NCBI GenBank assembly: GCA_030248065.1
Contig: JASAMV010001689.1
Location: forward strand, 83,181 to 147,180
Length of the DNA stretch: 64,000 bases
Direction of reading: 5' to 3'
DNA from: Rhynchonema sp. JSB1_4
Lineage: Eukaryota; Nematoda; Chromadorea; Monhysterida; Xyalidae
Part shown: piece by piece, positions 5,891-49,689 of the stretch
Layout of the letters: the number at the start of each line of letters is the position of its first letter
Numbering within the stretch: the first letter of the stretch is position 1
Program-made: the position numbers and the translations under genes
The notes under the pieces: model-generated
The model's input: the letters and a program-made list of their open reading frames with translations, nothing else
What the model was told of the DNA's origin: nothing
Database searches by the model: none

Positions 5891-5964
5891 GTATAAACTT
5901 CGTTCAATTCAGCAAAAGCCCAAGCCTAAGCTTAAGCCTAAGGAAAACTTAAGCAGTCGGCAAA

Positions 5965-6594: not shown

Positions 6595-6636
6595 CTTCTG
6601 GTTACTTGTTGTCAACAAATCGCAACTTCAGCAAAA

Positions 6637-9600
6637 ATGCCGAAAAAGAGGACATTATGTAAAGGTGCAGGCCTGACGCGCGACAAGAAGAATAGAACGG
6701 TAAGGCTGTTTTTACTTTATTTGCTTTTCCCACCAGGAAGCCTAACAATTCTTGCCCCTTTTTGGAAAAAATTCTCCATAAAAAGGGTGCCGTATTGTCG
6801 GAAATAGAACCCCCATTAATTGAACCCCACCCAAATGGCTCGAAATCAAAAATAGAGCCCCCCCCATTAATTGACCCCCATTAATAGAACCCCACCTCCA
6901 ACCTTCACCGTACCACTGATTAGTGGTATGATAAGGCTGTGTTGTTGTGTCAAACGTTGTTTAAGCTTGCGTTTTCAGCAGAATACGGCTTTTTAAACAT
7001 AATTAACGCCGTTAAAGGCAGAAAATACCCTCAACAGGCCATTTTTAGGGGTATTAAAAGTGATATTTTTGGTCGAGAGGCCAAATGAAAAATATAGCCC
7101 CCCCCAATAATTGACCCCCCCATAAATTGAACCCCCCAAAATGACCCCAGTGAAAAAATAAACCCCCGGGTTCTATTTCCGACAATACGGTATTTTGGCG
7201 ACTTTTGACATCATTGACCTAGAAATCACCCATTTTAGGCCTAAAAATGCCCATTCTAGGTCTAAAAATGCCGATTTTAGGCAAAAATTGAGGCGGTTAG
7301 TGTACCTGGTACGGCGGTTAGTGTACTAGTGTACCGTATTGTCGGAAATAGAACCCCCCATTAATTGACCCCCCATTAATTGAACCCCCCCTAAATGGCT
7401 CGAAATCATAAATAGAACCCCCCATTAATTGACCCCCCATTAATAGAACCCACCCCCAACCTTCACCGTACCACAGATTAGTGGTATGGTAAGGCTGTGT
7501 TGTTGTGTCAAGCGTTGTTTAAGCTTGCGTACACAACAGAATACAGCTTTTTAAGCAGAATTGCCGCTGTTAAAATTAGAAGATACCGAAAACAATCCTT
7601 TTTTATGGGCATTATTAACACAGATTTTTTTCGTCGGGGGGGCAGATGAAAAATATAACCCCCAATAATTGACCCCCCTCATAAATTGAATCCCCCAAAA
7701 TGACCCCCAGTGAAGAAAATGGGACCCCCAGGGTTCTATTTCCGACAATACGGTAGCTAAAAACATCGGGGAGGGCTAGGCAGGCCGGGTTTTGGCCAAC
7801 TCGGGCCCGGCCGGGCGAGGTTAGCTTAGAGTTAACCTTTATGAGAGGCTTAGGCTATCTATTTATGGCATTTTATTTTATATATTTTTTAATTTTATGT
7901 CCGCCGACAAGCATAAAATCAGTCGTTTTTTGTTTTAGAATCGACGACAAGACAAAGGAACAAATGCCGGCAAAGAAGAGAGTAAAACGACGACAGCCAA
8001 AAGTGGTATGGAATCAGAAGAACGGGTGGTGGCGAGGAGAGAGAATTCGGTTTGTGCATTTATTTTAACGGTTTTGTTTTGTGGTGAGTTCCTTCTCGCT
8101 CTCTAGCCAATTTTGCGATTTTCTTTGCCGTCCGTTTTAGTTATGGGTTTTTATTCGTCAGTGATAAAAAAAATTTTATTTTTCGTTTTTCAGAATCGAC
8201 AAGACGAACGGGCAAATGTCGGCAGAAAAGTGAAAGAAAAACGGATGACAGCCAAACCAAAAAATGTCCCAGTCAGTGACGCTGTGAGCCAGGTTTGTTT
8301 ACAGTTTGCGATATCATTCAATTCTTATCTGGTGAATTTTTCTAAAAGCGTTGTTTGGTAGCATAAATCAGATATATTTCGGTTGTTTAACCGAAAATTT
8401 ATTGGCGCTAATTACAGACAATCGAAGAACTCGGTGAAGAGCGGGCAAAGTACCTGCACTCACGAAAACGAAAACCAAGGAAACCAAAAGGGGTGTCGCG
8501 TTTGCAGGCAATAGATAAGGTTAGATTTTCTGTCTTTTTTGTGTGGGCATCCGAGATTAGGATCGTGCCGGGTAACTCGGCGCGTCCCGGCACGACTGAC
8601 CAAAACTTAGGCTCAGCCCGATTTAAAAGTCCAAAATCCCGGCCCGGCCGGAGCCAAAGGTCGGCCCGGCCCGATTTTAGGGTCAAAGGAAAAAATTGTC
8701 CAAAAAGCCTAAATTTGCAAAATTTTCTTGAGGAACCATGTTTGTGTGTTTGTGATTCGCTTTCTGTGAATCGGGTCCATTTGGGTCCCACAAAAAATGT
8801 GCTTTGTTCTGCGCGAAGTGCGATTTTTTGGAGATTTTTGGTGCAAAACACTGGTTTCGGCTCGAAGTTTGAGCAATTCAGGCCGTGTCGGGCCGGCAAG
8901 TCCGGCCGGCCCGGCCCAAACCTTCAAATCTCCGGGCCAGCTCGGCCCAATCCTAATCTCTGGTGGGCATTATGTTCACTTTTGATTTCGATCTTGCTTC
9001 GAATTAGATATTGGAAACTATCCGTCCGGGGACGGGATTTTTGACATGGTCGACCGGGCCGGGCCGGAGATCTGGGAGGACCGTGTCGTGCCGGGTCGAG
9101 GAGCCAAAATTCTAAGGAAATTTCCATTTTTGTAAACACTATTGCTGCGCAACCCAAATCCAAACGCAAGCACGTGTTTATTGTAGAATCGACGTCAAGA
9201 AGAGTTAGCGAAAAATGCCGCCAGAAAACAGAAAACGACGATCATGACTTCATCGTCAGAATCAGAAGAAATGAACCAGACGGATGGTGGAAACACTGTG
9301 ATTGAAACGGTTGGCAAATTTTTATCATTTTTTTCATGTTTCTGATTCGCTTTGTAAAAGTTTTTACGTAAAGTAACACTACGCCAACACGAGCCCGATT
9401 TCGGAGCTGGCAAAATGGTGAAACATTCAGACGTGGCTGCTGATTTGGGAAACGTTACACGTTGTGGAATACAACGTGGAGCATGATGATTTTCTCTTTC
9501 TTTGCGTTTTGCAAGTTCACCACCTCCGAAATAGGGCTCGTGCTGGCGTAGTTTGCCCATACATACGTATTTTTATATAACGTATATTAGTGTATTCCCA

Positions 9601-12600
9601 TATGCTTTCATACTAGGTAAATTAATGTAAAGGCAAACTACGCCAACATGAGCCCGATTTCGGAGCTGGCAAAATAGTGAAACATTCTGACGTGGCTGCT
9701 GATTTGGGAAATGTTACACGTTGAAGAATACAAAGTTGAGCATGATGATTTTCGCTTTCTATTCGTTTTGAATGCACACCACCTTCGAAATCGGGCTCGT
9801 GTTGGCGTATTTTGCCTTTAATTGATTTCAGTGTGTGTGTGTTGTTTTTACTAACAGAACAGTACAGCGTGATTAAATTCAGCATCCAAAATGACAGTAA
9901 AAAGTAGTCGATCCAAAATTTTGCATCGAGCATTCTTGGTCAAGTACTGTTGCTTGAGGGCGATACAAAATTTGGCCCATATAAACATCTAACTTTGAAA
10001 AAAACAAATGTGCAGGAATTATGTCGCGACAACGATGGCGACTTGACTAGTGACAGCGATTCGCTATCAACTGAGCAAGACGGTGATGTCGTTTCAACAA
10101 ACGTTCAGGTAAAGGTCACAGGTTTTGCTTTGGGACAGGCTGATCTATAGATTGTATATAATAATACTAATAATTTAGGAAACGTCAGAATGCAGTGATT
10201 CCAACAACAATGACAATGAGTGGCGATGGCAGCCAAGAACAAGTGGCGCCGTGCAAACAGAAGTGCAAATTGTGCGCAGTATTGGTTTTTTAGATTCCTT
10301 TTTGATTGAAAATATTGAAAAAAGTCATTTCATATAGGAACAAGCAGTCAGACAAAGGAAACAGCACACGGCAGCAGGTAGAATGCAGCCGCACAATGTA
10401 CCGTCAAAGGCAAACCAACTTGCAACGGTTACTGTTTGAACTATGATTTTTTTCACACGTTTATTTATGTTAATGGTTGTTGCCAAGTATTAAAATTATT
10501 TTCCAGATTCGATGCGGTGTGTTTGGCTGCAAGAAGAAGGCGTGCGCCAAATTTTATCCGCGGCTGCAGATGAGCGCGACGCGACTCGAAATGGGGGCAG
10601 GAATGGCTGTGGAAGTGTGTGCCGATCATCATTCTACAATTTCATGCAATCATAAGCAAGAACAGGTGAATCAAACTTTTCAGTTTGGAAATATTTTATC
10701 AATAATATTTTTATATCGAGTGAATTTCATCAAATACAAATATTGTCTGAGACATCAAAACATCAAACAAAAGAGAATATATGAAGAACTTTAGTGAAAA
10801 AAATTTCTGCCTGAAAATTTGCGAGCAAGGTGTTCAGACAAAGTTTTACCATGGTGGACGCAAATGTCAGATTTTGTAGCATTCTTGCGAACCAGTGGTG
10901 CAGCGTTGTCGTGGCTGCGGTGAGGCCATGTTGTTTTCTCGCAACAAATGTGACAACCACACGTACAAGCCCAGCAGCGGTAACTGCGAGCTGATCATGT
11001 CTTGTCCGAACTACAACGAACAGATATTGGAACAATACGCCACTGTTAGTTGAATAACAATAGATGGTGGTTTTTTGACTAAATAGCATATCTTTTCCAG
11101 CTTTTGGGTGACGGCTGCAATCGTGGCGGATTCGTGCAGACAATGTACGTGTGTGGCAAATGTCACAACTTTTCGGATGAGCGGCGCAGGAATTTGCGTG
11201 AAGAGGTTGGTTGTATTTAGTTTTTTGCTGGTGTAAGTTCATGAAAAATACCACACATTTGGTCCTTTCTGATTTTACAGAAGCGATGCAGTGTGAAAGA
11301 TTGTTGCAAGTGGGGTGATTGCAACTTTGACGGTGTCGAACATTCAGCAGTGATGTTGAAGCCGACATTTCGAGTCGGTTCACGCAAAGTTCTTTGTGTC
11401 GAACATCGAAAGAAATTGGAGGACACAAAGCATTGTGATTATGATGATGATGATTCTCAGGTTGGTTTAATTCTGTTTGTTTTGTTGTTGTTTTGTTCTG
11501 ATTATGTATTGTTGGCTGCTACGATGTGGAAGAAAAACTAAAATGGAAGGTCGAGACAAATTTGAACTGTAATTGCTGCAGTGCAGAAAATAGGCGGCTG
11601 GGAAAAACATTTGAATTATGTTTGTGAACTAGCGCGATCACAACGCGACACTGGAAGCATGTGCTTTAGCGACTAGATCGTGGATCCAAGATTGTGAACT
11701 GTCACGGCTGCGCTCTCAAAATGGTCATGTCGGGCCACAGCTGTCCAACGCATCGATTTTTGGCCAGCAATGACTCCACTGAGATCGTGATGTCATGTCT
11801 CACACAAGATGACGGCAGATTACAGCGCTACAGAGACGTAAGCTTTATTTTTAGAATGTTTGTGTTTTTGGCAATACAGAAAAAAGAGTATAGTATATCT
11901 ATATTTTTGCATTAATTTTTCCTCAATGACTGCTTCGAATTCAAAATTATTTATCAGATACTTCGTGTTGCCAACGGTGAGCAAATCGTGTATGTTTGTG
12001 GGGAGTGTTGCTACTGGACTGAAGACCAAAGATTCGAGGCTCAAAGGCATTCCACGTTCGTGGCACGTGTGAAAGACAATCGAGAGAAGGTTTCAGTATT
12101 TAATTCAAATCAGTATTTAATTACGCGTGGGCAAAAAATAGGAATTAATTGTTGCTTGCAGTGCTGCGTCAAAAAATGTAAATTCAACGGGAACTGTGAA
12201 AATCGATTGTCACGGCTGAACGGTGATTGTGTCGTGGAGCTGAAACAAAATGCAACTGAAAATTCTGTGGTATGTGGCAAGCACGGTCGTCAAATGAGTG
12301 GTCCGTGGTTCGATTATGGACGTGTTCTCCAGGTTACATTTTGGTGACGATGCATGCACAGGTTTCTTAGACACTTTTTGGGTGCAATTTGCAAATTAAA
12401 TTTCAGAATTGCACTTAGAAATTGGATGGTTAGGTGCAAGTTGCACCTAGATTTTTGAACACGAAAGTGCTCCTCACTGTGGTTGTCGCCCGTTTTTTCA
12501 GCTCAAAAGCGTAAAAACTTGCAAAAATGCTTCTACAGTCGAAGTTTCAGCTTGAAAACCAGTTTTGTGGTCAGTAATACCCCTATTTTGCTGTGTGTTT

Positions 12601-15600
12601 GCTTTATTGTGGCGTTGTAAGCAAACACAAACTGCGTGGAAACACAGCACCAAAAAAACAATGAATTTGTGCTTTTTTGGCAGAACTTGACCTTGCACCT
12701 AAAACTTCACACTTACACCTAAAAATCAAGGCGTTAGGTGCAAATTGCACCTGGAAAATTTTGAAAAATAAACCCTCGATGCATGGATCCATTTTGAGAT
12801 GCGGAAAAAAAGAACAATTTTCTAGGAGGCCAATCGAGGCGCGATCCGGTCGACTTGTGATGGCTGCGGTGCTGCATTGGTTCTCAATAGGAAGCGTTGT
12901 CGTCAACATCATCACCTTGGACGAGGCAATGACAAGAGCGGTGCCCCACACACCTTTTCAACGCCGTGTGATGTTTTTGTGGAGTGCTGCGAAAAATACC
13001 AACAGGTAGCTGTTTGTTTGTTGTGGAGCTTGCTCGAAACCCATGGCTTCAAACTCGTTTCAGATAATTGGGCGGACTGAGTTTACGAATCAACATGTAT
13101 TCTTTTGCGGCTGTTGTCATTTGTGGTCCGACACTCAACGGTTGTCCGCTAGTGCGGGAAAGCGGCCGTATTCGACGCCAGAGTTGTCACACAAGCGGGA
13201 GACAGTCAAAAAAAAAGACGATTGTCCGCTGGTTCGTCGGAGTGTGCAAGACGTGCAGCTCGAGCAAAGAGTCAGCGAACTCCGGACACTGCTCGACGGC
13301 TGCTACGACGCTCCATCCACTGGTCCAGGTCAGGGTTACGATTTCGTATGTTACAAAACTTTATATCTGCTTTAGGCCGTAGTCGTTGACCATGAATGCT
13401 CGATGTAAAATTTCATTTTATCGTCCTCAAGTACTAGTTTTTTCGTATATACATGTTTTCACATAACTTACATGTAGCCATACATGTTTTAACACCAGGC
13501 AAATTGATGTAACTGGTTTTAATGTGTTTATTGTTTTTACTTAATTATATTGGCCTAAAGCAGTGTTTTTTGAAAAGTAAGTGCTCGATATAAAATTTTA
13601 TTTTGGCTTCAAACAATAGTTTTCTTTAAAAAAGTGCTCGATGTATAAATTGTATATCCACCTGAAGCAGCAGTTTTTTCGCAGGTATATATTTTTACAT
13701 AACATTAGTGTGGCCATACATGTTCTGACAGTAGCTAAATTAATGTAACTGGATTTAGCGTGTGTTGTCTTGTTTTATATTTATTAAATAGGTTTTCGTA
13801 GAATATCAACTAAATTTTCAGTGAAAAGCGAAGACAACGAGTCTATCGTAAGCGGCTTCGAGGCGATGACACTCTGGTGGAAGAAGGCTGTGAAACAAGG
13901 GACCCGAAGTTGGTTTTCTGTAAAGAAGTTATGCTACTAGTTAGTTATGCTACGCGGTTATCGGACAGTTACATGTGCATTCATATAACTAGAACAATTA
14001 CCGCAGGGAATGTCATCCAGAGTCTGGCGAAATCGGCAATAACATCTATTGGACAGTAGCGAAGCGACGAAAGCAAGGCGTGACGATGTATGTCAAGGAC
14101 GCCCAGGAATTCAGTGACGACGAATTGGAGTACGATGAAAAAAGTTTGTTTTTTCTTTCAATATTTATTGTAATTTTCGACAATCTGTGAGGCTGGTCAA
14201 ACTACTTAGTTTGTTCGTTGTATTATTTATCTCGATAATAATGGTTAGCGCATGTGTATGGCAAATCCTTCGTGAACAAAACAACACTTTCTTCAACTGG
14301 GATCGAACTTAAGTCTACCGTCTAACCGGGGCTGTTGCCCACATAGCAAACGTTGTGTTACTTATTAATTTCGACTATGCTAGTGTCGGTATTTAGTGGG
14401 TACTAATCGTGGGCTGAAGCCTATGTCTTGCTGCAATCATTGGCTTGTGTGTTACGAAAAGAATTTTTGACACAGAAAAGCCAGCGTCACGTCGAGATCG
14501 AGTGGGTGTGCGAACAAAGAAAGCTGCAGCTGCGTTCAATCGGTGGAACTACACAAAGTTGAAGCAGAAAGGCGACAGCAGGGTGTCACCAAGAGGACTG
14601 GTCGCCAATTTGATTGCCAATGTAATGAGCAATCTTGATAGTGAAGAATCGATTGTGGATTTAAATGTCAGTCCTATTTGGTTGTGAATTTTTCGATATT
14701 CATTCTAGGGATTGGTGATTAAGATAGCGTTAGAAATATTCATTATTTTTGTATTGTGAGGGTTCCACAACAACGAGCGTCCAAATCAAAGGTAGACTGT
14801 AATTATATTTGCAGGGTGATCCCCGTCAACCAACTATTCATGACGTTGAGGTCCTTGCGGAGGACATACTTCGACTCAAATCGGAAAGCGTGAAGCGGTT
14901 GTGGGGCCTGTGGTTCAAGATCAAAGACGATTTCTATGAATTGGGGGACAACGCATTGGCTGAAGAGGGGCTGACTACTCAGGAACGCGCTGAGGCGTTT
15001 ATGAGTATCTACGGTGGCCGTCAAATTCACGAACAGGCTTATGTCTACCACGAAGCCGGCGCTCAGCGATTCCGTCGAAAGGCGCTACGGGAAATGCAAC
15101 GGCGGAAGAATGCTGCTGAATTGCAGTGCGCGAATCAAGCTGGATTTGTCACGCCAGATGGGGGTTAGCTGATTGTCAAGCGGTCCTTTAATTTTTTTAA
15201 TTTTATTACTGTCTTACCACTGGTGGTTGAATCGGTGAATATTTATTTGCTTCAGCCGCAGCATACAACGCCATAATCGGACGAAACAACGAAGAGTGTA
15301 TTACGGATCGGAGAGGTGAATTTCTTTCGTATTGTTGTTTAGTGTGGTGTTGTTATTGTTATTGCTTGTGTCGCGTTTTACATAGCAGTTTGTTGTTTAA
15401 GGGGCTCGCGTCAAGCGAAGTCTGCTGTCGACAGCCCACGAAACTGATGCAGACGTAGGGTCACAAGAACAAGAAGTGCCGAACAAGAAATCAAGAGCGA
15501 GTGTGAGACCGGAACGTTGGTGAAGGCTGTCAATTTTTTAGTTTTATTTTGTTTGACGATGAAGCTGTCCAGAAAATAGCTGCTACCAATGAATTTATGA

Positions 15601-18600
15601 AGACATTAAGAACAACAATAGCGCAGAACTATTTAGATATATCTGAAAACAAACAATATATGCATGTACTAAAAGCAGTTACATTAATTTACTTAGCGTT
15701 AAAACATGTGTGGCCACACTCATATGCATTATGTAAAAATATGTATGTACGTTGTGACACAACATTGTGAATATAGACAACATTCGTCACAACAAATTTT
15801 CATAACGATAGCTTTCTTTGTTCTAAAATGTTGTAATTTATTTTTTCGTTCTTTTCTCACCATTTTAGGTTCGACTGCGAACGAGTTCCTGGCTAATGAA
15901 GCGGAATGTGACGATGGGAGTGGTGACGAAAGTTTGTTTGTGTTTTTGATTATCAGTTTGTGTATCTGGGTCTGTATTGATGAAATTATGAACATTATTA
16001 TTTTTAATAAAATAATACATTCAGGTGAAGCTGACGTTCCTACAGCGGAAGATCTGGCGTTTTGTGTATCAGATGATGATGACGTTGCTGATGTTGACGT
16101 GTACCACGCCTACGACAATCAGGAAGCGCGTCGGCGTCTTGCTGGAGGTAGGTTTAGCAGCTTGGGACAGTTGTTGATGAATTCAAAGCACATTTCTCTT
16201 GCGTGTTTCAGAGGGCTGCGATGGGCCAATTCAAGACGATGACGGTGGACCGGACGTTTCCTTGGACGATGATGAACAATCTATCGCTTCGGTCAGCGAA
16301 TGCTCAGGTTCGCCATTCATAACAGTTGGTCAAAAACTGCATCGTTGTGTAGTTTGATATCGAGCATGCTTCTTCTAAAGAAGCTTGGTCAAGGCAATAC
16401 GTAATATAAAGTTTTAAATCGTGTTCGTCAAAACGGGTATTTGGTGGCGGATAGAAAATTACGTTCCATGTGAAGTTTAATTGCAGAAGCACTGCTGTTG
16501 AAATACTGATAGTTTGCGGTTAGTGCATGGGTTTTATTCAGGCTCAGCCCCGGCGCTTGATCGAGACGAGGAATGTGGCGATGGCGAACAATCGAAATCA
16601 GAAATGGAAGCCGAAGGCGCAGTAATTTCCTCCGATGAAGAGTTGGATGAAGATGTTAGATATGTGACAAGTCAGTTGTTGAATATTTATTATTATTGTT
16701 ATTGAATTGAATGTTGTTAACTCATAGTTGAATAGATTTTTTAAATCATCATAATCAATTGTTTCAGAGTGTCCGTTCATGTACACCATCCACGTTAAAT
16801 TGTTCGGTGGGGTAGACGATGCAAATCAGGAATTGCGATTTGAAGGGGATATAACGGAAGAATGTTTAGGTTTGACTAGTTTTGTATGTTATGTTATTAT
16901 TGTAGTTGCACATTATTAGAGGGCATTAATGATATTCTTATGTGAATCACAACATTCTATCAACATTGTATTACTACCTTGAATTCTTGAAGTCTTGTGT
17001 TCGCATTTGAGTGTCAGCTAATCTGACTATTTAAAGAACTTTTGACCATCGCCTACTGCATTTAATTTAACATCTGTGTTTATGAATTTTTCATAGCCGG
17101 CCAGTTGCATGCTGCTGCCGTCGTAAACCTGTGTGATGCGTTTTGTGGTGCTCGGATAAAAGCTTGATTTGAATGTGTAACAGTGTCATTAATTCCAGTT
17201 GCGAATCGAGGACCATACGAGGACAACAAACTGTCTTGTGACAATGATTGCGATGACAGTTGCCCTGACAACTGGCCCACTAGATTGCACCAATTTCTGG
17301 CGGTTGTCGACGAGGCGGTGACAACGAAGCAAGGTACTTTCTACCTGCGAAAGGCGTTACAGCAAATCCAATGGTGCAAGAAATGTGCGCTGGGGAATAA
17401 TCACGATATTCAACAGTGCACGGATGTGTTCGAATGGCTGACGAAACTGCGGCCCCACTACACGTATGTCACTTCTATTTTGTTTGCTGTGCTTTTGTTT
17501 GTTTGTTTTTTGTGGTTTGCTACATTTTGTGTTATTTTGTTTTTCAGAAATGTCCGATTGTTGACTTTCACTCTGTATTCTATGCGTCGTGTCGCCCTCT
17601 GGTTGCAAACATTCTATCGCTGTTGTAGCGTGGCAAAAGGGGGGCGTACAACTCTCACAATGTTGCGGCAATTGCAAGAAGAAATCGTAAAGGCGCTGCA
17701 TAGTAGAACGGTTCGTTTACAAACATACGTGTTAGGGTTAATTGACGGTTAATCAGCGTAACGTACATACGTGTTTTAACATATTGTACATTGGTGTAGC
17801 CATTTATAAATTGAAACTATGTAAATTTATGTATGTAGTTTAAAAGTATTAGCGTGTTTACGGAGGTGTTTTATGCTGTAATTAGTTTTTCAGGGCGACT
17901 CAGAACCGCAAACTGTCGTGGATGAGTCAGAAAGCGACGTGGTTTGTCGTCCTGCTGTCGATGAGAAGGAGATTCTGGCAGTACATGGAGATGAAGAAAG
18001 AAAATTCAGGAAGAAAATTTTCGAAATACCAACGTGCCCGTGTGCAGTATGCAGACGACGGCATCACGAGGACATGCTGCGCATTTGCATCGCGGAGCGC
18101 TTCGAACCGTCACGTCAAACTAGAAATTCGGACGCCCGTGATGAAATTCGTCTTCGCTTCTACAAATACGTGAAATGTTCGATCGACGATTGTGACTGTG
18201 AACATAAGGTTCAGGTGGATTTGAACAAAGAAGAAGATCCCTGCTTTCAACATGATGTGGAAGAAAGCGATGACGAACGAAATATGAATGATGAGCCTGA
18301 ACTGGAGGACGATGAGCAAGAAGTGTTCGACGCCGTGAATCGCTCACGGAGAGTCAAGCTGAAGAAGATGCGTAAGGAAATGTTGATCCCTGGTCACTAT
18401 TGGCAAGACCTCTCTACTCGCATGTCGGCGACGGTGTTGCAGTTGGGGAAGCCATTTGCCATCTGTGTCTCCCATCGTGGCTGTGTGACTTGCATTGACA
18501 ATCAACAGGTGCCGTTGTTTTCACCAGGAAATAATATGGGTAGGTTATGTCTTTTTTGTTTCTTTATTCGTTCTCTCATTCAGTTATGTGATTTCTTATG

Positions 18601-21600
18601 TGCGGAATTTTCCAACGGCGGGCGGCATTTCATCTTAATTGGCATTGTTAGTGCCATGCAAGTTTTATTTAGAGAATCACTGTGGATTTTGTTCTTTGTA
18701 GGCTTGGATGACGTTGTGCCTGAAATGGACAAACTCAACTACATTGAGCAGTTGTTGATTGCGCCGAGTGCTTGTTTCATCAATTGTATCGAGTTGAAGC
18801 CATACAAGAACGTGAGGGGAGGAGTGACAAATCGAGCCATGAAAGGTATTTGATCTATTGGTTGTGTTGATCGTTATTATGAACTGTGATTGCAAGATTC
18901 CGCGTTATCGAGTGGATTATGTGATTTTCACTTCAGGTAACGCAATACACATACCTGCTCCCCGTATCGAAACACTGCGTCACGTCAACGAAACACGCAC
19001 GGAGTTGTCGCGGGACCATCGCATTGCTGTGATCAATGTGCCATCGAATGTTCAGCGCGGTGTGGGGAGCGCGGTCAAAGCCTTGCGCAAACTCGTTCGC
19101 TTGGACATGGTCCGTCGTGTAATTTCGAGGCTGAAAGCTCTCGATAATCGGTAATTTGTTCGTGTTTTGTTTTTTTGTGTTTTGTTCTGTTTTGAAAGGT
19201 GTTGTCATTATTTATCATTGTACAGGTACTTCACCGACGTGGACGTTGATCGTCTTTTCGACGGCCTGGAAAATCGTGTGGTCATCGAAAGCGTGGGATG
19301 TGACGAGGATGGGGGATCGATGAGCGAGAACAACACAGATGAAAATCAAGGTATTTTAGACAGCGTATTTTGTTGTTTTTCTGTTGCTTTCGGAATGTTG
19401 CTATTTGTTCACGAGTGACGCTCATAACGGACATATTGATTTAAACATCGTTATACAAAATTTTATATCCGCACTCAAGGTAGAGTTTTTAACGAAACAC
19501 TTATTTTTTAGTTGAATAATTTTTTCCCTTTTTCATTGCAGATGGGGATGGATGCTCGTGGCTCGAGTACCTTGAAGGGGGCATCAGCTCTGTGGCTGAC
19601 AGCACGATTAGCCAGACTGAGTTGCTAAGTGACCAGACAGAAAGTGACATTTATCTGTAAGTATATTTTTATTTTTTATATTTTAATGGTTTTTTAACGT
19701 TTGTCGGGTTTGTGCGTGCAAATATGCTTCCTTGTTTTTCAGGAAGAATCGCATCAACGGCCAGCCATTGGGAGAGCATTATGCCAACTTGGATATTGAA
19801 ATTTATCCCGCATTGTTCCCCAAGGCTCGATACGGCATGGCTGATGAGCGAACGATACGGCTGACCAAGATCGAGTACACAAAAGCGCGCTTGCTTCACT
19901 TCGACGAGCGATTTCGGGCACGTGTTCAGTGGTTGTTTTTCATGCACAATTTGATATGTCACCAAGAATTGCAAAACGGTCAGTTGTTGTTAATTGTTTT
20001 TGTTTTTTTCGCAAGTTTTACTGACGAATATTTGGTTGAATTTGCGTATTTATTTCTTTGCTTATTGATTTCTTCACTTTTAGGAATGTACGCCATGTTC
20101 AACGTCTCGCAGTTCAAAAAGGGTGGCGGGGACCCGCGGGTGAATGCGGAAGCGTTTTTAAGGCTGCTTCGTGACAACGATAAAAGTGTATTGAAGAATT
20201 TGTGCAATATGATGGCAAAGGTGAGGTTTGTGTTGGTTGACCTTTTTTGTCTGAGAACCGAATGTGTAAAAAATGGTATTGGTGTACGGTTTAACGTGAA
20301 AGATTGTGTAATTCAGGTCCGCGGGTCGATGCAGTATTGGTGTAAGGTGCTTGGCGACTTACTAGCAATTTGCGGTCAAATTGGACCTCCCACGTTGTTT
20401 GTGACGTTGTCCTGCGCCGGTGTGTTTCTCAAATTGTTTGATGGCAGATTCTGCGTCACGTTTATGGATTACAGAAAAAGTGTAAAAACATCCATTGCAG
20501 AATATTCGTGGGCCGACATGGCTGAGGCTATTCGCGTCATGGACAAGCGTGTGGGCAACGTCGAGGACATAGGGTTGGGCAATGCATGTAACTTGGCGCC
20601 TGTCACGGTGGCATCGCAGTTCCACAGGCGCTGGGATGCACTGAAGAGCGTGCTGATGCCGAAAAAACGACGATCAATTTTGGGCTACTACGTGGACCAT
20701 TACTTTGTCAGGATGGAAAGTCAACATCGGTGAGTTTAAGGATAAGAGTTGTTCGTTAGCTTAGCAGTGTTGGGTTTAGCTTGGGATGGGATAGTAATAG
20801 TATTAGATAGAAAGTAATCAAACAATGCGAGTGTGTTTATTATAGCGGCGCACCACATTTGCACATGCTTCTGTGGCTGCGTGACGCGCCCAAGGTCGGC
20901 GTGGATAGTCCAGCAGCGGTTGCCAACTTCGTTGATTCGCTGATAACATGCGAGGTGCCGGATCGAAACGAAAATCCGCGACTGCATGAATTGGTAACCA
21001 AGTATCAGGTGAGTGATTGTGTTGCGCGATGTTTTTTCGTTTTCTGTTGCCTTCAGTTTGCATTTGGGTCACATAATTTTTCTATCTTAATGTTCAGGTA
21101 CACACATGTGGTCCGAGTTGCATGAGACATCGGTCCACTCGGAACATGAAACACTGCACAACTGACGACAACGGGCAAGGGACAGAAATCAGTAAGGTGT
21201 CTTGTCGGTATGGATTCCCAAAGAAGCCACGTCGCCGTACAGTCGTTCACACTGTTGAGCATGCGTTGGCAAAGGATAAAATGGGACGTCGGCAAAAGCT
21301 GGTCGATCTTGCTAGGCGGCCAGGTGTGCTGCGTTGTTTATTTAGAGACCACTGTCGCATGATTTAGTGAAAATAGGTTGATTTTATTCGCATTTGTATT
21401 GCAGAAGAAGAGAGGATAAACGCATACAATGCAACGGTGCTGTTGTTGTGGGAAGCTAATATGGACATCACATTTGTTGGTGAATCGTCACACGCAGTAT
21501 TGAGGTGGGTATTTTTACGCTTTTTTGTTTTTGTTTGGTGTGTTACTATGCGTATTTGCATTCCCTATGAAAATTTAAATTAATTTACGGTATGTAAATT

Positions 21601-24600
21601 AATGTAGGTGGTTTTAATATATATTTTATACGTGAATACAGGAATTGTTGCATTGTAAATTAATGTGGCTGGTTTTAATATATATTTTATACGTGAATAC
21701 AGGAATTGTTGAAAGTGGCTTTTTTGAAACGACAGAATAATGTGTGTATTGTTTTTTACTTCTGTTTCTATAGTTCTACGCTGTTGAATCCGTTTTTTCG
21801 TAGACTTATCGCATGGTTGATGTAATGAATTTGCATTGTTCTTTAGGTATGTCGCTAAATATGCGACAAAGGCCGAAAATTCTGGACCCGCCGATTCTGC
21901 GCTGAGCAAGTTGATGGACGGCGACTTGACTTTGCGTCAACGGGCTTATCGTTATGGTTTGGCAGCTTTGCAATCACGTGTAATTGGTGCGCCGGAGGTA
22001 GCTTGGCATCGGCTGGGATTTCGGGTGAGTTTTGGATGGCCATTTTTTCATCAGAGATATCGTGTGAGGCATGATTGGTGATACTGCATACGTAGCGTTA
22101 TTCTTATATAAAGCTTGATGAATTCTTATTAAGCTTTGCGAGCTGCAGTTCAGGAATTGAAAAGATGTTTATTGTAAATTTCAGCTGTATGAGACATCCG
22201 AAACAATACAGTTTGTCAACACCAACTTGCCGGAATCGCGATGTCAACGATTGAAGAAACCAAAGGATCTTGTAGATGGTGAGGCGACGACCAACATTGA
22301 AGAGCTGCTGTATCACAACGTTGTGGTTTGTGTTTTTGTCTGATAATTAGTTTTCTGTCGTGAATGTGTGTGTATTTTTGTCTTGAAATATTTTTCAGGA
22401 AAACTACTATCCGAATCGTCCGGTTGGGGACACATTTGGAGCCATGTCGTTGTTCGAATTCGTTCGTGATTATGCAATCGTCAAGGCTCCTAAAAACACG
22501 GATCGTGTCATAAAATGGTGAGTGTTGGGTGGTTGTTGTTTTGTTATGTTTTTTTGCCTGTTGTCTAAGTGACATTTTGATTTCCGCGTGTCACTTAGTA
22601 ATTTGATTGTACGTACAAATTTGAGGAAAGTCGGCAGAGAGCGTGAGGAGACTGTGGGATTGCGACGTCGCCTGAAACCAGCAATCTTGAAAACGCCGAA
22701 ATTCACTGAATCCGGCGAAAACGCAGAGCGGTATTTCCATCATCTGCTAATGTTATATTTTCCGTGGAGAAACGAAGTGCCGGATCTCAAAGGTGAGTTT
22801 TATCGGTTTAGATTGTGTTTTAATGGCCATGGTAAACGAAAAACAATTGAACTTTGGACGGTTTTGACAGGCGATTTTGCAACCTACGTTGAGTCATTCG
22901 CCGCAAAGGTCAGTAGAATGCGCCAGAATCCTGTGTTTGTGCAATACGAAACAACGAGATCCAATATCGAACGTGGGCAGCGTCTTGTGGAGAAGCTGAT
23001 GCGCAGCGACCGATCAATTGCTGAGTATCGTTCATCTGTTGTGGATCTGCCAGCTGACGATGAGGTATACTTGGGATGATCGGTTTGAACGGGTTTTGTA
23101 GTTTATCACGAAGTGTGGGATGGCTAACCATTGATGCTCCTCAGTGGTGTTGTTGGTTTGGGGGTGTGGGTTTGGGAGCAAGAAAGCTACCTATCATATC
23201 CCCCCCTAACCATATCGCTGATGCTGGACTTTATGTATAAAACTGGTTTTTGTGTTTAGTCAACGCGATGTGTTGGATCGGTTTCGGCGCATGAACTCGA
23301 TGGCGTCATCAATTCGTTGAACAGTGGTCAAACGAAATGCTTCCAGAAGATAGTTGGCCAACTAGAGTTACAAGATGGACATCCTAACGCACCGCCAATC
23401 CGAGAATTTGTGAGCGGTATTGGAGGCAGTGGTTAGCTTTTTTGTGATAATGGCAAACATTATGCTGGAAAAAATCTTTCAAGTAGTTGTTTGATTTCAT
23501 GTTTATTAGATTTAACGGTTTTTAAAGAATATTTGTTTATTGAACAGGAAAAACAGTACTGATTGCTGCACTCGTCAAGTGGGTGCATTTCACCTACGGG
23601 ACGTCCCCCGATCAGCCAGCAGTGGTGATGCTTGGGCCCACGGGGTTGTCCGCTTTCTCCATTGCTGGCCAAACCATTCATCGGTTTTTCGGGCTTCGGG
23701 TGACGAGCGGCGGTGAGGCGGCGTATCGCAGATATTCGACGCAGAAGAAAGTAGAGTTGAGGGAGCGGCTGTCGAACGTGCGGTTGATAATAATAGGTGA
23801 GTAACTGAGTAGTTTGATTTAGGTTTGTATTTTTGGAGCAAAAAATACGCGGTACTCTCTGGTAAATGTGTTTTTATTATTTGCAGATGAAATCAGTATG
23901 GTCTCGAACGTCACGTTACGAAAAATTCATGAATGTCTGTATGAGATCTTCACGCCCTCTTACGTGGACGACAATCCTCGTCATTTGTTCGGTGGCCGAA
24001 ATTTGGTGGTCTTCGGTGATTTGTTGCAGCTGCCACCCGTCGGCGCGACGGACAAGGTGGCAAAAGTTGGCTGCGTTTTCGAAGAATTGCGTGGACAGAT
24101 GCTAACCAAAGCATTTGGCAACGTTGTGCCGATGCCACTAGATCTATGGCCAGGTGTGTTTGGGGGCTTGTCATTTGGCGAAAAGCGTGAATCATAAAAC
24201 CCGAATTTTAGAACATCAACACGGTGTACCTGGGTTTGTGTGCGTATTTTAGATGCTACATTGCTTGCATAAATAAATAAATGATATTGCAAAAGATGTG
24301 TGGATACATCAATTAACAATATGTGAAAACATGTACCTACGTCTCACATTCAGTACGTATAAGTGGTAAAACCGATCTCGCTTGCCTCTAAACACGAATA
24401 TTAAAACATAGATCGGTCGAGTTTCAACAGCAATACCAAGTTTTGACTCATCAGTGTTTGTGTGAGAGGGACATAAGATTTGTTATCCAACATATTTCGT
24501 TCCATTTGTGAATGAGATGGGTTCTTGTTGGTTTGTGTGTGATGCTTTTGTTACACAGGTATCTTCGGCTACACTGAATTGACGCAGAACATGCGACAGG

Positions 24601-27600
24601 GGGCAGGCGAATGGAGCGACATGTTGAATCGTATCCGCGTCGGTGAGATTTGGGACTCGGACATGCAGACCTTGGAGACGAGGCTGATTGCTTCGCCTGA
24701 GGACGATGAGTTCGAAATGATGTCCATCGGAGCAGAGAGGTTTGATGATGGGCAATATAATTGCATACAATTTAATTTGGGTTTCATTTATACGGTGAAG
24801 TTCCTGGTTTTGTTGTTAAATTTCGTGTTAAGGGTGTTGTGCGTTTGTGTTTATTAAAAATGTGCTTTGTTGAAGATTTCTACAATTGCGGAGTACCACT
24901 TCGAATGTGCTCGCGTTGATGGGGACACATGACCTCGTGGACGATATGAACGAATTAGTGTTGGAGAAAATGCAAGAACGCAATCCATCCGACAACGTAT
25001 ACGAGTTATGCGCGATTGACACTGCGAAGGGACGGGTCTGTGAGATTAGGATGGATCTTTGTTTTTTTGTGGAACTTAAGTCTTAAAACTGTGTCAAATC
25101 GTTCATGGACATGGGGTTAGCAAAATTTGACTCTGCATGCAATTCAGGTAGAATTCGGGTCGGACGGTAGTAATAAACCCAGATACATCAATTTACATAG
25201 TGCCAAAACATGTAGCGCATAAATGTACAATATGTAAAACCATGTATGTACGTTATAACTGGGTTTTTGCTCGCACTTGTGTTGGTAATCAGTAATGACG
25301 TCAAAGTCAAGCGTAAGTGAAAGCCAAGTTGTGGAAAAGCGTAATCTAGAATGTCAGTGTAGTCCATAAAGATGAATGGTAACTCGATTAATTTTTGCGT
25401 AGAGGGCCCAGAAGCGGTTGGCACTGGCGTCAAGATGCAAGCAGCGTTCAAAATATGGACGGAAGGAAAGTCGATTGGTCACGTCTGAGCGCGTGAGCAA
25501 CAGGGGTGGCTTGGCGGCGATCGTTCGTATTATGGTCAACTCGCGTGTCATGATACGGCGTAATTTGGACGTCGAACGAGGTCTGTTTTTGTTGTCAATA
25601 AGCTGGACTTTGTTGTGTTAAAGTTGGCATCGATACCCCAGTGTGATTATGTGTTTAGGAATTGTCAACGGCGCTCTTGGAACAGTGATGATGGTGGTTG
25701 CCGATCCCGTCGAAGGCGTGACGACTGTACGCATAAAGTTCGACAACATTCGCGAAGAGTACGATTGCCGACGGGTAACTGGCTTGTTCGAAGTCGCGAG
25801 TGGGCTCTACGCTACCAGATTTCAATTCCCTTTCGTGGAAGCATTTGCAATGACTGTTCACAAGTGTCAAGGTGCGCTTTAAGGTGGAAAGTTTTGAGAT
25901 TAGATATTTTCGAAAAGCATTTCTGTAATGAAATCTCTGTGTAGATGTGGTCATTCGTTGAGCTTCAGGGTTGTCGGTCGATCACGCGATCATTTGTGCC
26001 GACAATCGTATGTTCTGTGATGGCATGGTCTATGTGGCGTTGTCACGCGTCCGATCGCTTGATGGGGTCCACTTGTTGCGTCTCTACTGCCATCGAATCA
26101 CGGCGCACAAAGCAACATTAAAGGAATACAATCGATTGAGGGCAACATTGGACCCGCCGCTGCCCATGCTTTGTGAGGATCCCAAACAGGTGCGGATACA
26201 TTGGCGTTTGATGGTGGACATAAAAAAATTATTTCATATGAAGTTATCGTGATAAAATACTGATTGCTAAAAGTGAATATACGCGGAAAGAAATTCAAAT
26301 TAGCAGTTTGTAATTAAGAGTGTCATGTTGAAGCAAAGGTGTTGTGTGGAGAGATCGTTTTTTGTTTGCAGACAGCCTACGGTTTCCATCTGCTGTCGAA
26401 GAAGGACGCTGCACATTGTGGCATTACAAATAGATTGATGCCGAGGGTGCTAAAGAACAGAGCGACTCCACAGATGCGCAAGGGTGGCAATATCGATACG
26501 CCGTCAAATAGTGAGGATGAATCGGTATGGTTTGGACTGCTTAACGTTTCGTATGGCATTCAAAGAACCCGAAATTCATTTTTATTTGAAGGTTGGTGAC
26601 ACAACTGTGCGCTCGACATATGCGACTCCTCGGGTGCGGAGTGATGGTAATATTGACACACCAGATGACAGTGGGGATGACGATACGGTACGGTTTATCG
26701 TATTGCACCCTAATGCTGTTATCTGTGACTGAAAAAAAATACTAATCATGTTACATTAATTTACATAGTGCCAAACATGTGTAGATATACTAATGTACGT
26801 TATGTAAAAATATTTATGTACGTTAAAACTACTGTTTTCGGCGATATTAGTTGTTAAAGTTTCATATCGAGCATTCTTGGTCAAAAACCACTGGTTGATG
26901 TCGATATAAAGTTTTGTATCGATATTCTTGGTTAAACACTGTTGCTTGAGTCGATATAAAATTTTATGTGAAGCATTCTTGGTGAAAAAGTATTGTACTG
27001 GTTTGAACTTTTTTTAATATTCAGTTCGGTTTACAGGCAATGATGGACGAATGTGATTATTATCAAGAAATGTGGCATAAACATCCTGAATATTTCGATG
27101 ATCCCAGCAATCCCAACATCGATTGGGAAGCAGTTTTTACGGATATGGAACAATGGTTGGTTGGTTTGACGCAGATTTTTCGATCATAATAAGACTGCTT
27201 CATGATAAGTGATCTGTAGCACAACGGTGCCGATTACGGGACGATTCATTGGGTGTGACGATCCGCGCGGTTTGACCAATATCGGAAACTCGTGCTACGT
27301 GAATGGCATGCTGCAGTGCATTTCTACATGTGATGGTTTCATTGCGTTGGCACCTGCAGCCGTGTCGGCACTTGATCGTCATGCAAAGTTTGTGGAAGAA
27401 ATGCACATTATGTTTTTATGTTAAAAGTATTGTTTTAAATTTCAAAACAGTGTTGGTTTCAGGCCCGAAGATCGGTACATGTGGAATCTGATGAATCAGA
27501 TACTTGTACATTGCTACTACGTTGGGACAGAGTACAATACGAATTTGTTTGACAAAACGACTGTTGGCAAAGTAGACCTGTTGCACTTCAAGGTTCGTTA

Positions 27601-28891
27601 CGGTTTTAATCATTTTTTGTTGTTGTGGTTTAAATCCGTAATTTTGTGTTGTTAAATGTTGTTAATTTATTTATTATTGTTTGAGGAAGCGCTGGCGTTG
27701 CGACATCCTAGATTTAGAAACAGCGACGCACAGGACGCCGATGAACTGTGGCAGGAAGTTCTGAAACCTTTGCTGATTGAAACGTATCGGACATCAGAAG
27801 ATCCGAAGTTTTATCAGGTGATTATTTTTGTATTTTTTGATCATACGCACCTATGTGAAACAACAATTTGTTTGCGTTTGTTTTTCAGATGGTGGTGCAC
27901 ACTCAGCGTGTCTGCGCGTGTTGTGGAAACAAAATGAACGAGTTTATTCGCACAGAAGACTCCGAAATTTGTGTTGCAGTGGCGCCCGGCACGCAGGATG
28001 GCGTCGAATTACAGGTTCGTGAATTGAATGTTGCACACTTTGGCAGTAGGGTGCGGGGTTTGGGATTATGTCGATTCTCGACACCAGGGACTAGGATCGA
28101 GCCGGGTAACCTGGGCCGGGCACGACTGACCAATACTTTGGCTCGGCTCGGTCTGGTCCGGTATGAAAGTTCAAAGTTTTTGAGCAATGCGGGCTGGGCT
28201 AGATTTGGTCCGAGTCAAAAGTCGAAAATCTCGGCCCGGTCCCAGCTGTGTTCGATACCTACACTTTTTATATTTGTCTAGGATTTGATTGCAACGCAGT
28301 TTGCCCATCAAACCAACGAACAAGAGTGCGACGTTTGTGGTCGCTTCGAAATCGATGAGACAAGGCGGATTGGTGAATGTTACAAGCATCTGTTTGTTAT
28401 GATGTCCAGGTGTGACATTTGTTGAAACATTTTTATCTTTATTGGTGATTTATCTGTATGCTGTTATATTTTGTCAGGGCTGTGTACGACCAACAACTGA
28501 AGATCATTAGTGGCGTTACGGAGGCGCGTGTTGTTGTGCCCAGATTTATTTCTTTGCCGACCACTGATGACCAACTGATGCCATTGACATTCGAGCTGCG
28601 AGCTGTTTTGGTGCGTAATTTTGTGTTTATTTTGAACATTTATATATCGATTATTTTAAACATAAACATTTATTGATTGTTGCAACGTAGGTTTACCATC
28701 GTTCGTTGCGACACTACGTGGCATACGCGTACAACTACTATATTAGGGCATGGATTCACGTGGATGATTATCAAATATCCGTGGTACAAAATTTTTACAA
28801 GCCCAACCATGACAAACAGAAGGCAAATGATTATGTGCAAAGTGAAGATTGTTGCAAGCGTGGAACAGTGTACATCTATTGTCTCCAGTAG
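6637..28891 (+). CDS. giant Helitron-type Rep/helicase fused to a USP
   Basis: About 67 exons can be joined in phase from ATG at 6637 (MPKKRTLCKGAGLTRDKKNR) to TAG at 28891, giving about 3,500 residues with no in-frame stop. Order: basic exons starting NRRQD/NRQDE/NRRQE (7939-8049, 8194-8292, 9187-9309); a coiled/basic exon at 8418-8519; three zinc-type modules (10507-13345); basic and acidic linkers (13829-16869); a DUF6570-like part (17894-19150); Rep (19743-22024); PIF1 helicase (23270-26189); an acidic linker with the duplicated motif GNIDTP (26372-26687); USP (27220-28891). Many of the early introns are phase 0. Introns are packed with MITEs while the coding frame stays open. Rolling-circle transposons normally encode Rep-helicase of roughly 1,400-1,900 residues, so this is unusually large. 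It could be two or more adjacent genes; in-frame splicing and linker exons argue for one, and only cDNA would settle it. Small exons at 25148-25166 and 25293-25312 are the weakest links. Confidence 0.8.
6790..7190. mobile_element. TA-flanked TIR element, copy 1
   Basis: The termini are perfect 23-bp inverted repeats starting CCGTATTGTCGGAAATAG. The right flank is TA and the left is TG, consistent with a decayed TA target. The interior has C-rich 'AATTGACCCCC' repeats and a conserved block, CCGTACCACTGATTAGTGG. No transposase is encoded. It lies in the first coding intron of the giant gene. Confidence 0.8.
7334..7753. mobile_element. TA-flanked TIR element, copy 2
   Basis: It has the same CCGTATTGTCGGAAATAG termini as the copy at 6790, here with intact TA on both sides (7332-7333, 7754-7755), as expected of Tc1/mariner-type insertion. 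The internal block CACAGATTAGTGGTATGGT and the following 60 bases match copy 1 closely. The two copies are in the same orientation in one intron, only 143 bases apart. Confidence 0.85.
8551..8962. mobile_element. hAT-type MITE with GGCCCGG core
   Basis: The ends are CCGAGATTAGGATCG and CAATCCTAATCTCTG. A perfect 8-bp target duplication GTGGGCAT is at 8543-8550 and 8963-8970. Both sub-ends are GGCCCGG-rich and the middle holds unique AT-rich DNA. It is inserted in the intron between exons 8418-8519 and 9187-9309 of the giant gene. Confidence 0.85.
9370..9557. mobile_element. small TIR MITE, copy A
   Basis: Inverted ends resemble CACTACGCCAACACGAGCCC and GGGCTCGTGCTGGCGTAG, with arms of about 35 bases. 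The interior carries GTGAAACATTCAGACGTGGC, shared with copy B at 9632. It is 188 bp long with no coding capacity and is located in the intron after exon 9187-9309. Confidence 0.75.
9632..9812. mobile_element. small TIR MITE, copy B
   Basis: It begins GGCAAACTACGCCAACATG and ends CGTGTTGGCGTATTTTGCC. It is about 90 percent similar by eye to copy A, in the same orientation and in the same intron. It is flanked by AAA/TTT, so the exact target duplication is unclear. Confidence 0.8.
10507..13345 (+). other. triplicated three-exon Cys-rich (zinc-type) module
   Basis: Nine consecutive exons form three copies of an a-b-c cassette. Exon a (10507-10665, 11281-11460, 12162-12332) has Cys/Lys-rich motifs such as CGVFGCKKKAC, CSVKDCCKWGDC and CCVKKCKFNGNC, and ends in a C-x2-H pair. 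Exon b (10880-11044, 11670-11837, 12826-13005) has a C-x2-C turn then C-x2-H or C-x3-H (RCRGCGEAM...CDNH; NCHGCALKM...CPTH; TCDGCGAAL...CRQHHH). Exon c (11101-11205, 11958-12089, 13064-13345) has VCGKCHNFSDERR, VCGECCYWTEDQR or FCGCCHLWSDTQR. All introns are phase 0, which permits duplication by exon shuffling. Zinc binding and nucleic-acid contact are inferred from spacing; I do not recognise a named family. Confidence 0.8.
14250..14345 (-). other. possible tRNA-derived repeat
   Basis: On the minus strand the stretch reads ...GTAGACTTAAGTTCGATCCC, which matches a polymerase III B box (GTTCGATCCC). There is no convincing acceptor stem or full cloverleaf. It could be a fragment of a tRNA-derived SINE in an intron of the giant gene. 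Confidence 0.25.
15869..16869 (+). other. acidic linker exons of the giant protein
   Basis: Five short exons (15869-15931, 16025-16147, 16212-16307, 16542-16670, 16768-16869) are joined by phase-1 introns and encode strongly acidic, low-complexity sequence: SDDDDVADVDVYH, DDDGGPDVSLDDDEQ, SSDEELDEDV. They separate the basic/zinc N-terminal part from the catalytic part. A flexible or chromatin-contacting linker is the plain reading; no domain is recognised. Confidence 0.6.
17894..19150 (+). other. DUF6570-like region preceding Rep
   Basis: Exons 17894-18539, 18702-18845 and 18937-19150 encode CPCAVCRRRHHEDML, then an acidic stretch, then PEMDKLNYIEQLLIAPSACF...LKPYKN, ending with IAVINVPSNVQRGVGSAVKAL. 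The pattern L-x-x-IE-x-LI-P with a following conserved glycine and a VPxxV motif resembles the DUF6570 domain that commonly stands just before the Helitron Rep domain. Identification rests on recalled pattern, not on a search. Confidence 0.6.
19743..22024 (+). other. Helitron Rep (HUH/Y2) nuclease domain
   Basis: Exons 19743-19978, 20084-20220, 20317-20419, 20501-20729, 20846-21008, 21098-21323, 21405-21504 and 21847-22024. Seen in order: LFVTLSCAEYSWADM (Rep motif 1); RMESQHR/GAPHLHMLLWL, the metal-binding HUH motif, split by an intron at 20729/20846; a Cys/His stretch HTCGPSCMRH; and LRYVAKYATKAE, carrying the two tyrosines of the Y2 active site spaced as YVAKY (codons near 21850-21862). 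These residues are expected to nick and rejoin single-stranded DNA in rolling-circle transposition. All catalytic positions are present. Confidence 0.92.
23142..23220. mobile_element. very short hAT-type relic in helicase intron
   Basis: The left end is CAGTGGTGTTGTTGG and the right end CCCCTAACCATATCGCTG. The flanks ATGCTCCT and ATGCTGGA agree at five or six of eight positions. At 79 bp it looks like an internally deleted copy of the family at 214-1268. It sits in the intron between exons 22871-23064 and 23270-23431. Confidence 0.55.
23270..26189 (+). other. PIF1-type SF1B helicase domain
   Basis: Exons 23270-23431, 23548-23796, 23887-24153, 24559-24739, 24876-25035, two tiny exons near 25148 and 25293, then 25403-25580, 25659-25871 and 25969-26189. 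Motifs: Walker A SGIGGS/GKTVLI, split by an intron; MLGPTGLSAFSIAGQTIHR (Ia); Walker B LIII/DEISMV, again split; VVFGDLLQLPPVG (III); ELTQNMRQG (IV); NGALGTVMMV; AFAMTVHKCQ/GLSVDHAII; and VYVALSRVRSLDGVHLL (VI). This is the 5'-3' helicase that drives strand displacement in Helitrons. All motifs appear intact. Confidence 0.92.
26840..26992. repeat. tandem ~55-bp repeat, three units
   Basis: Units share 'TCGATATAAAATTTT ... GAGCATTCTTGGTCAAAAAC'. Diverged single copies appear at about 9900, 13395, 16350 and 42420. They are intronic or intergenic, AT-rich and non-coding. Confidence 0.6.
27220..28891 (+). other. ubiquitin-specific protease (USP, C19) domain
   Basis: Exons 27220-27387, 27463-27592, 27686-27817, 27889-28014, 28282-28409, 28478-28610 and 28691-28891. 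The Cys box reads GLTNIGNSCYVNGMLQC, with the nucleophile Cys codon at 27293-27295. Next is NSDAQDADELW, equivalent to the QQDAxE box. A zinc ribbon of two C-x2-C pairs follows (VCACCGNK and ECDVCGRF), as in the fingers subdomain of classical USPs. The His box is LRHYVAYAYNYYIRAWIHVDD, with catalytic His near 28712 and Asp in the VDD motif. About 330 residues is normal for a USP core. The predicted reaction is removal of ubiquitin or a ubiquitin-like protein from lysines. A USP fused to a Helitron Rep-helicase is not something I know; OTU-type cysteine proteases are known in Helentrons. Confidence 0.87.
28040..28260. repeat. GGCCCGG-rich MITE relic in USP intron
   Basis: GC-rich blocks (CTAGGATCGAGCCGGGTAAC near 28090 and GGCCCGGTCCCAGC near 28235) match the hAT-type MITE at 8551. 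It lies between the two zinc-ribbon exons of the USP. Termini are decayed and no clean target duplication is visible. Confidence 0.6.
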
Positions 28892-29288
28892 CATTGATAA
28901 CTAGACAAATATTTGTCATTACGACTGCCAAATTTTGCAGTGTCCGTGCACTTTATTACTGTGCATTGTCATTTTGTGTTGGTTAAAAGTTATGGATTTT
29001 CTTATAATTTCTAGTCTATTGATTGTTATCTGATCCGAAATTTTTGTGCATTATGAATGTGCATGAATTACTATTGTGCATTATATAGTTGTGATTTGAG
29101 ATTATATTTATTATTATATAAAAATAATATATTAAGATTGTAAATTTTAGTTGTTGTGGTTTGTTTGCAGCACAATTTATTCATGAAATTATGATAACAA
29201 AACGAAGAAATAGTAGTTGCTCGTGCTGAAACCAGACAACGTATATAAGAGAACAAAATTAGCTGGTGTTTTTCAAAGCTGAGCAATT
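28892..29288. other. convergent intergenic spacer
   Basis: This 397-bp AT-rich spacer lies between the stop of the plus-strand giant gene and the stop of the first minus-strand gene. It has a GTGCATTAT-type repeated motif (28950-29090) and polyadenylation-like AATAAA-type sequence on both strands. No coding sequence, and no Helitron-type 3' hairpin that I could recognise with confidence. Confidence 0.5.
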
Positions 29289-40430: not shown

Positions 40431-40572
40431 TCACGAGCCATTATTTTCGCAGATAATTTTTGCCAAACCCGTAGTAGCTTCCATTTTTGGCCCTGACATT
40501 CAAAAAAAAGACAAAAGTACATAACGATCAAAGGGGAATGTGGAAAAAAATAAGGTTGAGCATCCTAAAGGC

Positions 40573-48076: not shown

Positions 48077-48200
48077 CTGCAATTATAATGGCGGGTGAAA
48101 AAAAATGTTTTTTAAAGAAAAAAACGGAAAAAACGAGAACAAAAAAACGGGACCATCTGGGACGTGAAAAAACCGAAGAAGAAAACTTCAGTATCTGTGG

Positions 48201-49665: not shown

Positions 49666-49689
49666 TCTTTGGTCATGACCGGGATGCCC

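Follow-up and report, generated by a model that had tools for sequence, protein, structure and literature searches.

Does the Helitron at this locus encode a Rep-helicase with a ubiquitin-specific protease (USP) in the same protein, or do a transposase and a USP lie side by side? The window, i.e., the whole stretch of DNA that was analysed (64,000 nucleotides), is the final 64 kb of contig C1037 in the 204 Mb genome assembly of Rhynchonema sp. JSB1_4, and introns mark its DNA as eukaryotic. A search for the exact nematode SL1 leader gave no match. A first-pass annotation had read the HUH motif, the Y2 tyrosines, the PIF1 helicase motifs and a C-terminal USP in one phase-consistent chain of exons. 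In this study, we located these motifs on the plus strand, and the profile check that the annotation had proposed gave Pfam matches for all three domains, with the spliced window protein submitted as two pieces (Helitron_like_N 6.6e-21, PIF1 4e-20, UCH 1.3e-16). The domains follow each other in the order Helitron_like_N, PIF1, UCH in a phase-consistent chain of 29 exons on the plus strand (19743-28891), obtained by three-frame translation, a GT-AG exon-chaining script and Pfam. The script proposed the exons, and its output beyond 19743-28891 was over-fitted and discarded. At the linker position it picked something different and shorter; the two linker exons included in the chain were read by eye. 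The gene start at 6637 that had been annotated is without support. The element starts near 5207, and the most upstream homology detected for the gene, by tblastn to the relative P0003, lies at 18698. The exons and motifs are as follows.

18698..19145, plus strand: upstream exons, transposase N-terminal region (tblastn E 4.8e-5 to residues 471-582 of P0003)
19743-19978, 20084-20220, 20317-20729, 20846-21008, 21098-21323, 21405-21504, 21847-22024, plus strand: Rep (HUH endonuclease) exons of the gene model, with the Helitron_like_N match
20847-20876, plus strand: HUH motif GAPHLHMLLW
21848-21871, plus strand: Y2 motif YVAKYATK
22185-22325, 22399-22517, 22626-22792, 22871-23064, plus strand: exons connecting Rep and helicase (gene model; tblastn to P0001, P0003, P0009 and P0098 among the relatives)
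23260-23431, 23548-23796, 23887-24153, 24559-24739, 24876-25035, 25466-25580, 25659-25871, 25969-26189, plus strand: PIF1-like helicase exons, with the PIF1 match
23416-23433 and 23544-23561, plus strand: Walker A, split
23886, plus strand: helicase motif DEISMVS
24015, plus strand: helicase motif GDLLQLPPV
24582, plus strand: helicase motif TQNMRQ
25856, plus strand: helicase motif VHKCQG
26031-26054, plus strand: helicase motif YVALSRVR
26372-26524, 26592-26687, plus strand: linker exons, both phase 0
27025-27155, 27220-27411, 27463-27592, 27686-27817, 27889-28014, 28282-28409, 28478-28610, 28691-28891, plus strand: USP exons, with the UCH match
27287-27304, plus strand: USP Cys box NSCYVN
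27731, plus strand: USP motif QDADEL
27913, plus strand: USP zinc pair CACC
28327, plus strand: USP zinc pair CDVC
28709, plus strand: USP His box RHYVAYAYN
28757, plus strand: USP motif HVDDYQ
28889-28891, plus strand: stop codon TAG

A genome search with window positions 17800-29000 detected the helicase C-terminus together with the whole USP at 97-98% identity on three further contigs (C3379, C4416 and C3518). In C3379 and C4416 the copy begins at a contig end, and in C3518 it breaks at window 25634; all three copies extend to window 52386-52388, minus the segment 30644-50518. C2984 carries a fifth, partial copy, and its contig ends before the USP. For window 17800-25331, short intron repeats aside, this search detected no second copy at the DNA level. 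Between the helicase C-terminus and the stop, C3379 and C4416 retain 13 exons and C3518 retains 12, with all GT/AG sites intact, no indel and a single stop at the end. The chain goes beyond chance in that splice sites, frame and single stop are kept in each of the three other copies and that relatives have both parts in one protein. In all six copy pairs, pN/pS of the last two helicase exons is 0-0.03, and for the USP exons the six pairs give 0.06, 0.09, 0.13, 0.16, 0.16 and 0.52. The linker exons, with 0.15-0.92, are under weak constraint. Exon 25466-25580 in C3379, near the contig end, speaks against constraint with six nonsynonymous and no synonymous codon changes, and when it is added two pairs give 0.31 and 0.44. 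As the differences are few and one exon is contrary, the values demonstrate constraint without fixing its precise strength. The helicase-USP part is maintained between copies. As a side observation, the intron pieces 21591-21786, 25174-25259 and 26752-26837 match short repeats on many contigs with an identity of ~75-91%, and several of these contigs also carry a terminal unit of the type found at 51295-52387.

The USP lies within the transposon, as the Helitron ends enclose it.

5207..52385, plus strand: Helitron element, 47.2 kb here, with TC at 5207-5208 after A at 5206 and CTAG at 52382-52385 before T at 52386
30644..50518, unstranded: segment of ~19.9 kb missing in C3379, C4416, C3518 and C2984, through one insertion here or several deletions there
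51295-51550 and 52132-52387, unstranded: perfect 256-bp inverted repeat, the right arm of which is the 3' terminus of the element

The 3' edge is common to the window, C3379, C4416, C3518 and C2984, with CTAG followed by T in all five and differing flanks beyond. On the 5' side, identity between the window and C3518 starts at 5204, three bases ahead of the TC, which follows A in both; in L042, the start of a copy that has diverged further is at 5206 or 5212. Since these 5' edges differ slightly, we infer the exact first base from the canonical junction of A with TC. The element has several features of canonical Helitrons: a Rep HUH endonuclease with two tyrosines, a PIF1-like helicase fused to it, TC after A at one end and CTAG before T at the other. 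A possible hairpin (AGCC-GTTTA-GGCT, 52361-52373, plus strand) with a 4-bp stem lies 8 nt before CTAG; its z is -1.36, and 18 of 200 shuffles fold equally well. An AP endonuclease gave no Pfam match at 0.01 in the spliced window protein, of which the USP is the end. A host USP gene that is a mere neighbour of the transposon was considered as well and is ruled out, because the USP is inside the element ends and is repeated together with the helicase.

At the segment 30644-50518, each of the four short copies has its own junction. Within this segment lie 42-bp tandem repeats (38069-38375), also found in the repeat loci L041 and L042, which share the 5' region of the element. Other contigs, e.g., C457, C3788, C1293, C2387 and C1780, carry inverted pairs similar to that at the 3' end, with a span of about 1.0-1.1 kb. 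This suggests that Helitrons of this group have a foldback-like module at their terminus. The inverted-repeat unit 51295-52387 may instead be an independent MITE at the element end; however, copies that reach this unit stop at its right edge, with CTAG and then T. Outside the element, a perfect 182-bp inverted repeat is present (60225-60406 and 60609-60790), the arms of which are about 200 bp apart.

With the whole protein as query, 234 homologues were detected at 1e-10, and 120 of them were listed. UCH and PIF1 occur in one protein in 12 of these 120, including the top three matches, and 11 of the 12 also have Helitron_like_N. All 12 have the USP downstream of helicase motif VI and retain its Cys, His and Asp. 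LOC117970172 of Acipenser ruthenus is one of the 12; P0025, from the same species, has UCH at 1.1e-16. No relative was found encoded in the genome contigs that were searched. The OTU protease is C-terminal in P0004, P0008 and P0037 and N-terminal in P0016, and Ulp1 is C-terminal in P0032. Within the genome, the best Helitron_like_N match is on C166 and belongs to a second, deeply diverged Helitron (C166:96873-106600; L009, L051). Downstream of its helicase, three open frames match the Helitron-USP profile (E 3.4e-12, 7.3e-7 and 3.6e-6 among 152 frames), and stitched together they match Pfam UCH at 2.5e-11, while the C166 USP is not among the matches listed for a genome-wide Pfam UCH search. 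Its Cys-box frame has a long linker and no Met ahead of the box, so that translation has to enter this frame from an exon further upstream. The same helicase-USP arrangement, which the first-pass annotation had advised to seek as a fusion at other loci and in related species, was found on the three further contigs, in C166 and among the listed homologues.

These results bear on whether the two parts form one protein. Potentially, the USP could be a second gene of this Helitron, unfused and starting independently at 27040, where an ATG heads the first USP-side exon. The helicase frame continues to a stop at 26252 when the donor at 26189 is unused, and the weak constraint on the linker exons would also fit two genes. 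Against this, the two phase-0 linker exons, which both carry the motif ATP..R..GNIDTP..S.D, connect the helicase end (26189) to the first USP-side exon (27025), and they bridge the gap with open frames and intact GT/AG in the window and in the three other copies. Both parts are in one predicted protein in the 12 database relatives, and the Cys-box frame of C166 has no upstream Met. Two separate genes are for these reasons improbable.

The window USP has the features of the USP (C19) family, namely Cys and His boxes with the catalytic triad and two CxxC zinc pairs in the fingers. Its catalytic Cys, His and Asp and its CxxC pairs align with the 12 Helitron relatives, and the Cys is kept in 13 of 13 sequences. 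An alignment of ten Helitron USPs shows no variation at the Cys, the four zinc cysteines and the Asp, and hardly any at the His. Used as a profile against PDB, the Helitron-USP alignment matched USP46 at 4.4e-29 and many further USPs more weakly; the top solved-structure match of the window USP alone had E 0.0024. An AlphaFold model of the relative P0121, not of the spliced window protein, covers 355 residues from the helicase end through the USP with a mean pLDDT of 82.5. Foldseek with this model returned USP21, USP2 and USP30 at E 4e-20 to 1.4e-19, and all 50 matches listed are USP-family chains. The window USP shares with the cellular USP family (UCH, PF00443) the catalytic triad, the CxxC zinc pairs and, by the model of a relative, the fold, whereas it is strongly diverged in sequence. 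A protein search with the USP region alone gave no match at 1e-3, and a profile search with the USP found five proteins, i.e., the Helitron fragment P0121 and four UCH proteins without Helitron domains. The window USP scores 44 bits on the Helitron-USP profile against 61 bits on Pfam UCH, and by single-sequence comparison it scores 27 and 24 bits with two UCH proteins without Helitron domains and at most 13 bits with any of 17 Helitron USPs. It may therefore be a separate acquisition.

Helitrons often capture host genes (PMC6431247), and a recently captured host USP without function for the element would fit the slightly greater nearness of the window USP to cellular USPs than to other Helitron USPs. 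Such a passenger is highly improbable, since the USP is constrained between copies and the same arrangement is found in deeply diverged Helitrons; moreover, the eight top UCH loci of this genome include no close relative of the window USP (best 12 bits). It is also conceivable that the USP fold has lost cleavage and serves as a ubiquitin-binding or structural module. Inactive VTD domains have been published (PMC9741609), and the related protein P0083 has an inactive copy. In P0083, two tandem USP-like domains follow the helicase and Ser replaces the catalytic Cys in the first of them, which recalls the inactive VTD copies of insects. Loss of cleavage is unlikely for the window protein, given that Cys, His, Asp and the zinc cysteines are intact in it and in the 12 aligned relatives. 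The exon chain kept in four copies, the intact catalytic residues, the constraint, the place inside the element and the fusion in relatives together argue that a canonical, non-Helentron Helitron very probably encodes a fused Rep-helicase-USP with a catalytically competent USP.

The history of the protease was followed in a tree of 111 Rep-helicases, from which ten of 120 proteins with fewer than 850 query residues covered were left out, P0083 (USP) among them. The clade that contains the window (SH-aLRT 100) has 43 rows, namely 12 USP rows (11 proteins and the window, i.e., all USP-labelled rows), 15 OTU rows, one Ulp1 row and 15 unlabelled rows; AP endonuclease and VTD labels are absent from it. 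On visual inspection, the labels of seven rows were changed, those of P0022, P0024, P0040 and P0042 to USP and those of P0012, P0020 and P0037 to OTU. For these, Pfam matched OTU in P0037 above the cut-off and, below the cut-off, UCH in P0042 (2.7e-4) and P0022 (0.0013) and OTU in P0020 (0.021), and gave no protease match in P0024, P0040 and P0012. P0024 reaches 71.6 bits on the Helitron-USP profile; P0040, in which the catalytic His fails to align, reaches only 15 bits. P0039 was judged degraded and its label was kept as none. After re-labelling, there are 16 USP rows and at least seven changes on the starred branches; forcing the USP rows together is rejected with p-AU 1e-50, a value in which long branches are in play. 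Eight rows of the clade still have no recognised protease after inspection, so either the protease is dispensable in some cases or the sequences of these proteins have parts missing. In a 50-row tree, the window and P0040 (Caenorhabditis auriculariae, weak USP label), both on long branches, stand at an unresolved base, and C166 groups with P0001 and P0003 (84/40) within a clade of ten rows (96/98), nine of them USP and one without a label.

We read the interchange of USP, OTU and Ulp1 in the helicase tree as a probable repeated exchange of the protease module, and the basal position suggests that a USP may have been the first protease of the clade. More than one capture is possible, since the window USP is not nearest to the other Helitron USPs by single-sequence score. 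It is tempting to speculate that canonical Helitrons throughout this clade share a slot for a deubiquitinase at the C-terminus, ancestrally a USP and swapped several times later for OTU or Ulp1. If so, rolling-circle transposition in the clade would generally require that ubiquitin or SUMO be removed, and unrelated enzymes would meet this need convergently. To this scenario we give somewhat less than even weight.

Rep and helicase probably act as in other Helitrons. Rep would nick and join the TC/CTAG ends of the element and the PIF1-like helicase would peel the strand, while the fused USP would most probably strip ubiquitin in cis at the transposition complex. Its likeliest target would be the transposase itself or adjacent proteins, which would spare a large and scarce protein degradation by the proteasome; the chief alternative targets are fork or repair factors. 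That the USP specifically protects its own transposase is a tentative proposal, and the roles in host proteostasis or replication-fork ubiquitin signals that the first-pass annotation had put forward are likewise hypothetical. From the sequence data we infer the single transcript, the USP activity, its target and its benefit. Such a ubiquitin-stripping role agrees with suggestions made for other transposons (Bao et al., PMC2836005; Erven et al., 2022, PMC9741609).

Helentrons carry VTD (herpesvirus-tegument-like) and/or OTU deubiquitinases, of which the VTD activity is reported there as tested and the OTU as untested, and different classes of deubiquitylating enzymes were suggested to benefit Helitrons (Erven et al., 2022, PMC9741609). 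They resemble the window element in the rolling-circle Rep-helicase with a fused deubiquitinase. They differ from it, as described in that source, in having an AP endonuclease and VTD or OTU folds, whereas the window has a USP fold, canonical TC/CTAG ends and no AP endonuclease found. Helraiser/Helibat shares with the window the 5'-TC, the CTAG-3', the A/T target, the Rep-helicase and a hairpin near the 3' end (PMC4778049). The available text of that source mentions no protease for it, and the window differs further in its short, weak hairpin and its 47 kb copy. Among other transposons, Ginger and Mutator transposases were described that carry OTU or Ulp1, as was a transposase_11 protein of Trichomonas that carries Peptidase C19 (Bao et al., PMC2836005). 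These proteins likewise combine a transposase with a ubiquitin or SUMO protease, in one of them of the USP type (C19), but are not rolling-circle Helitrons (PMC2836005). No Helitron with a USP was found among the matches listed for the open-licence literature, a scope outside which Repbase reports and most subscription journals lie. The first-pass annotation had taken the fusion as new. The general idea is not, because deubiquitinases on Helitrons were already published (VTD and OTU; PMC9741609), and what seems new is the USP class on a Helitron and its exchange with OTU and Ulp1.

Unrelated ubiquitin/SUMO proteases on rolling-circle transposases (USP as well as OTU, VTD and Ulp1) would strongly indicate a ubiquitin-based barrier to transposition, and the older suggestion becomes directly testable (PMC2836005; PMC9741609). 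Caution is also needed with annotations, as a USP joined to PIF1 or Helitron proteins can be part of a transposon protein and not a host deubiquitinase. P0001, a USP-Helitron protein and one of the 12 listed homologues with UCH and PIF1, is annotated publicly as an AAA ATPase in a MAG assigned to the gammaproteobacteria, a record that is probably eukaryotic contamination.
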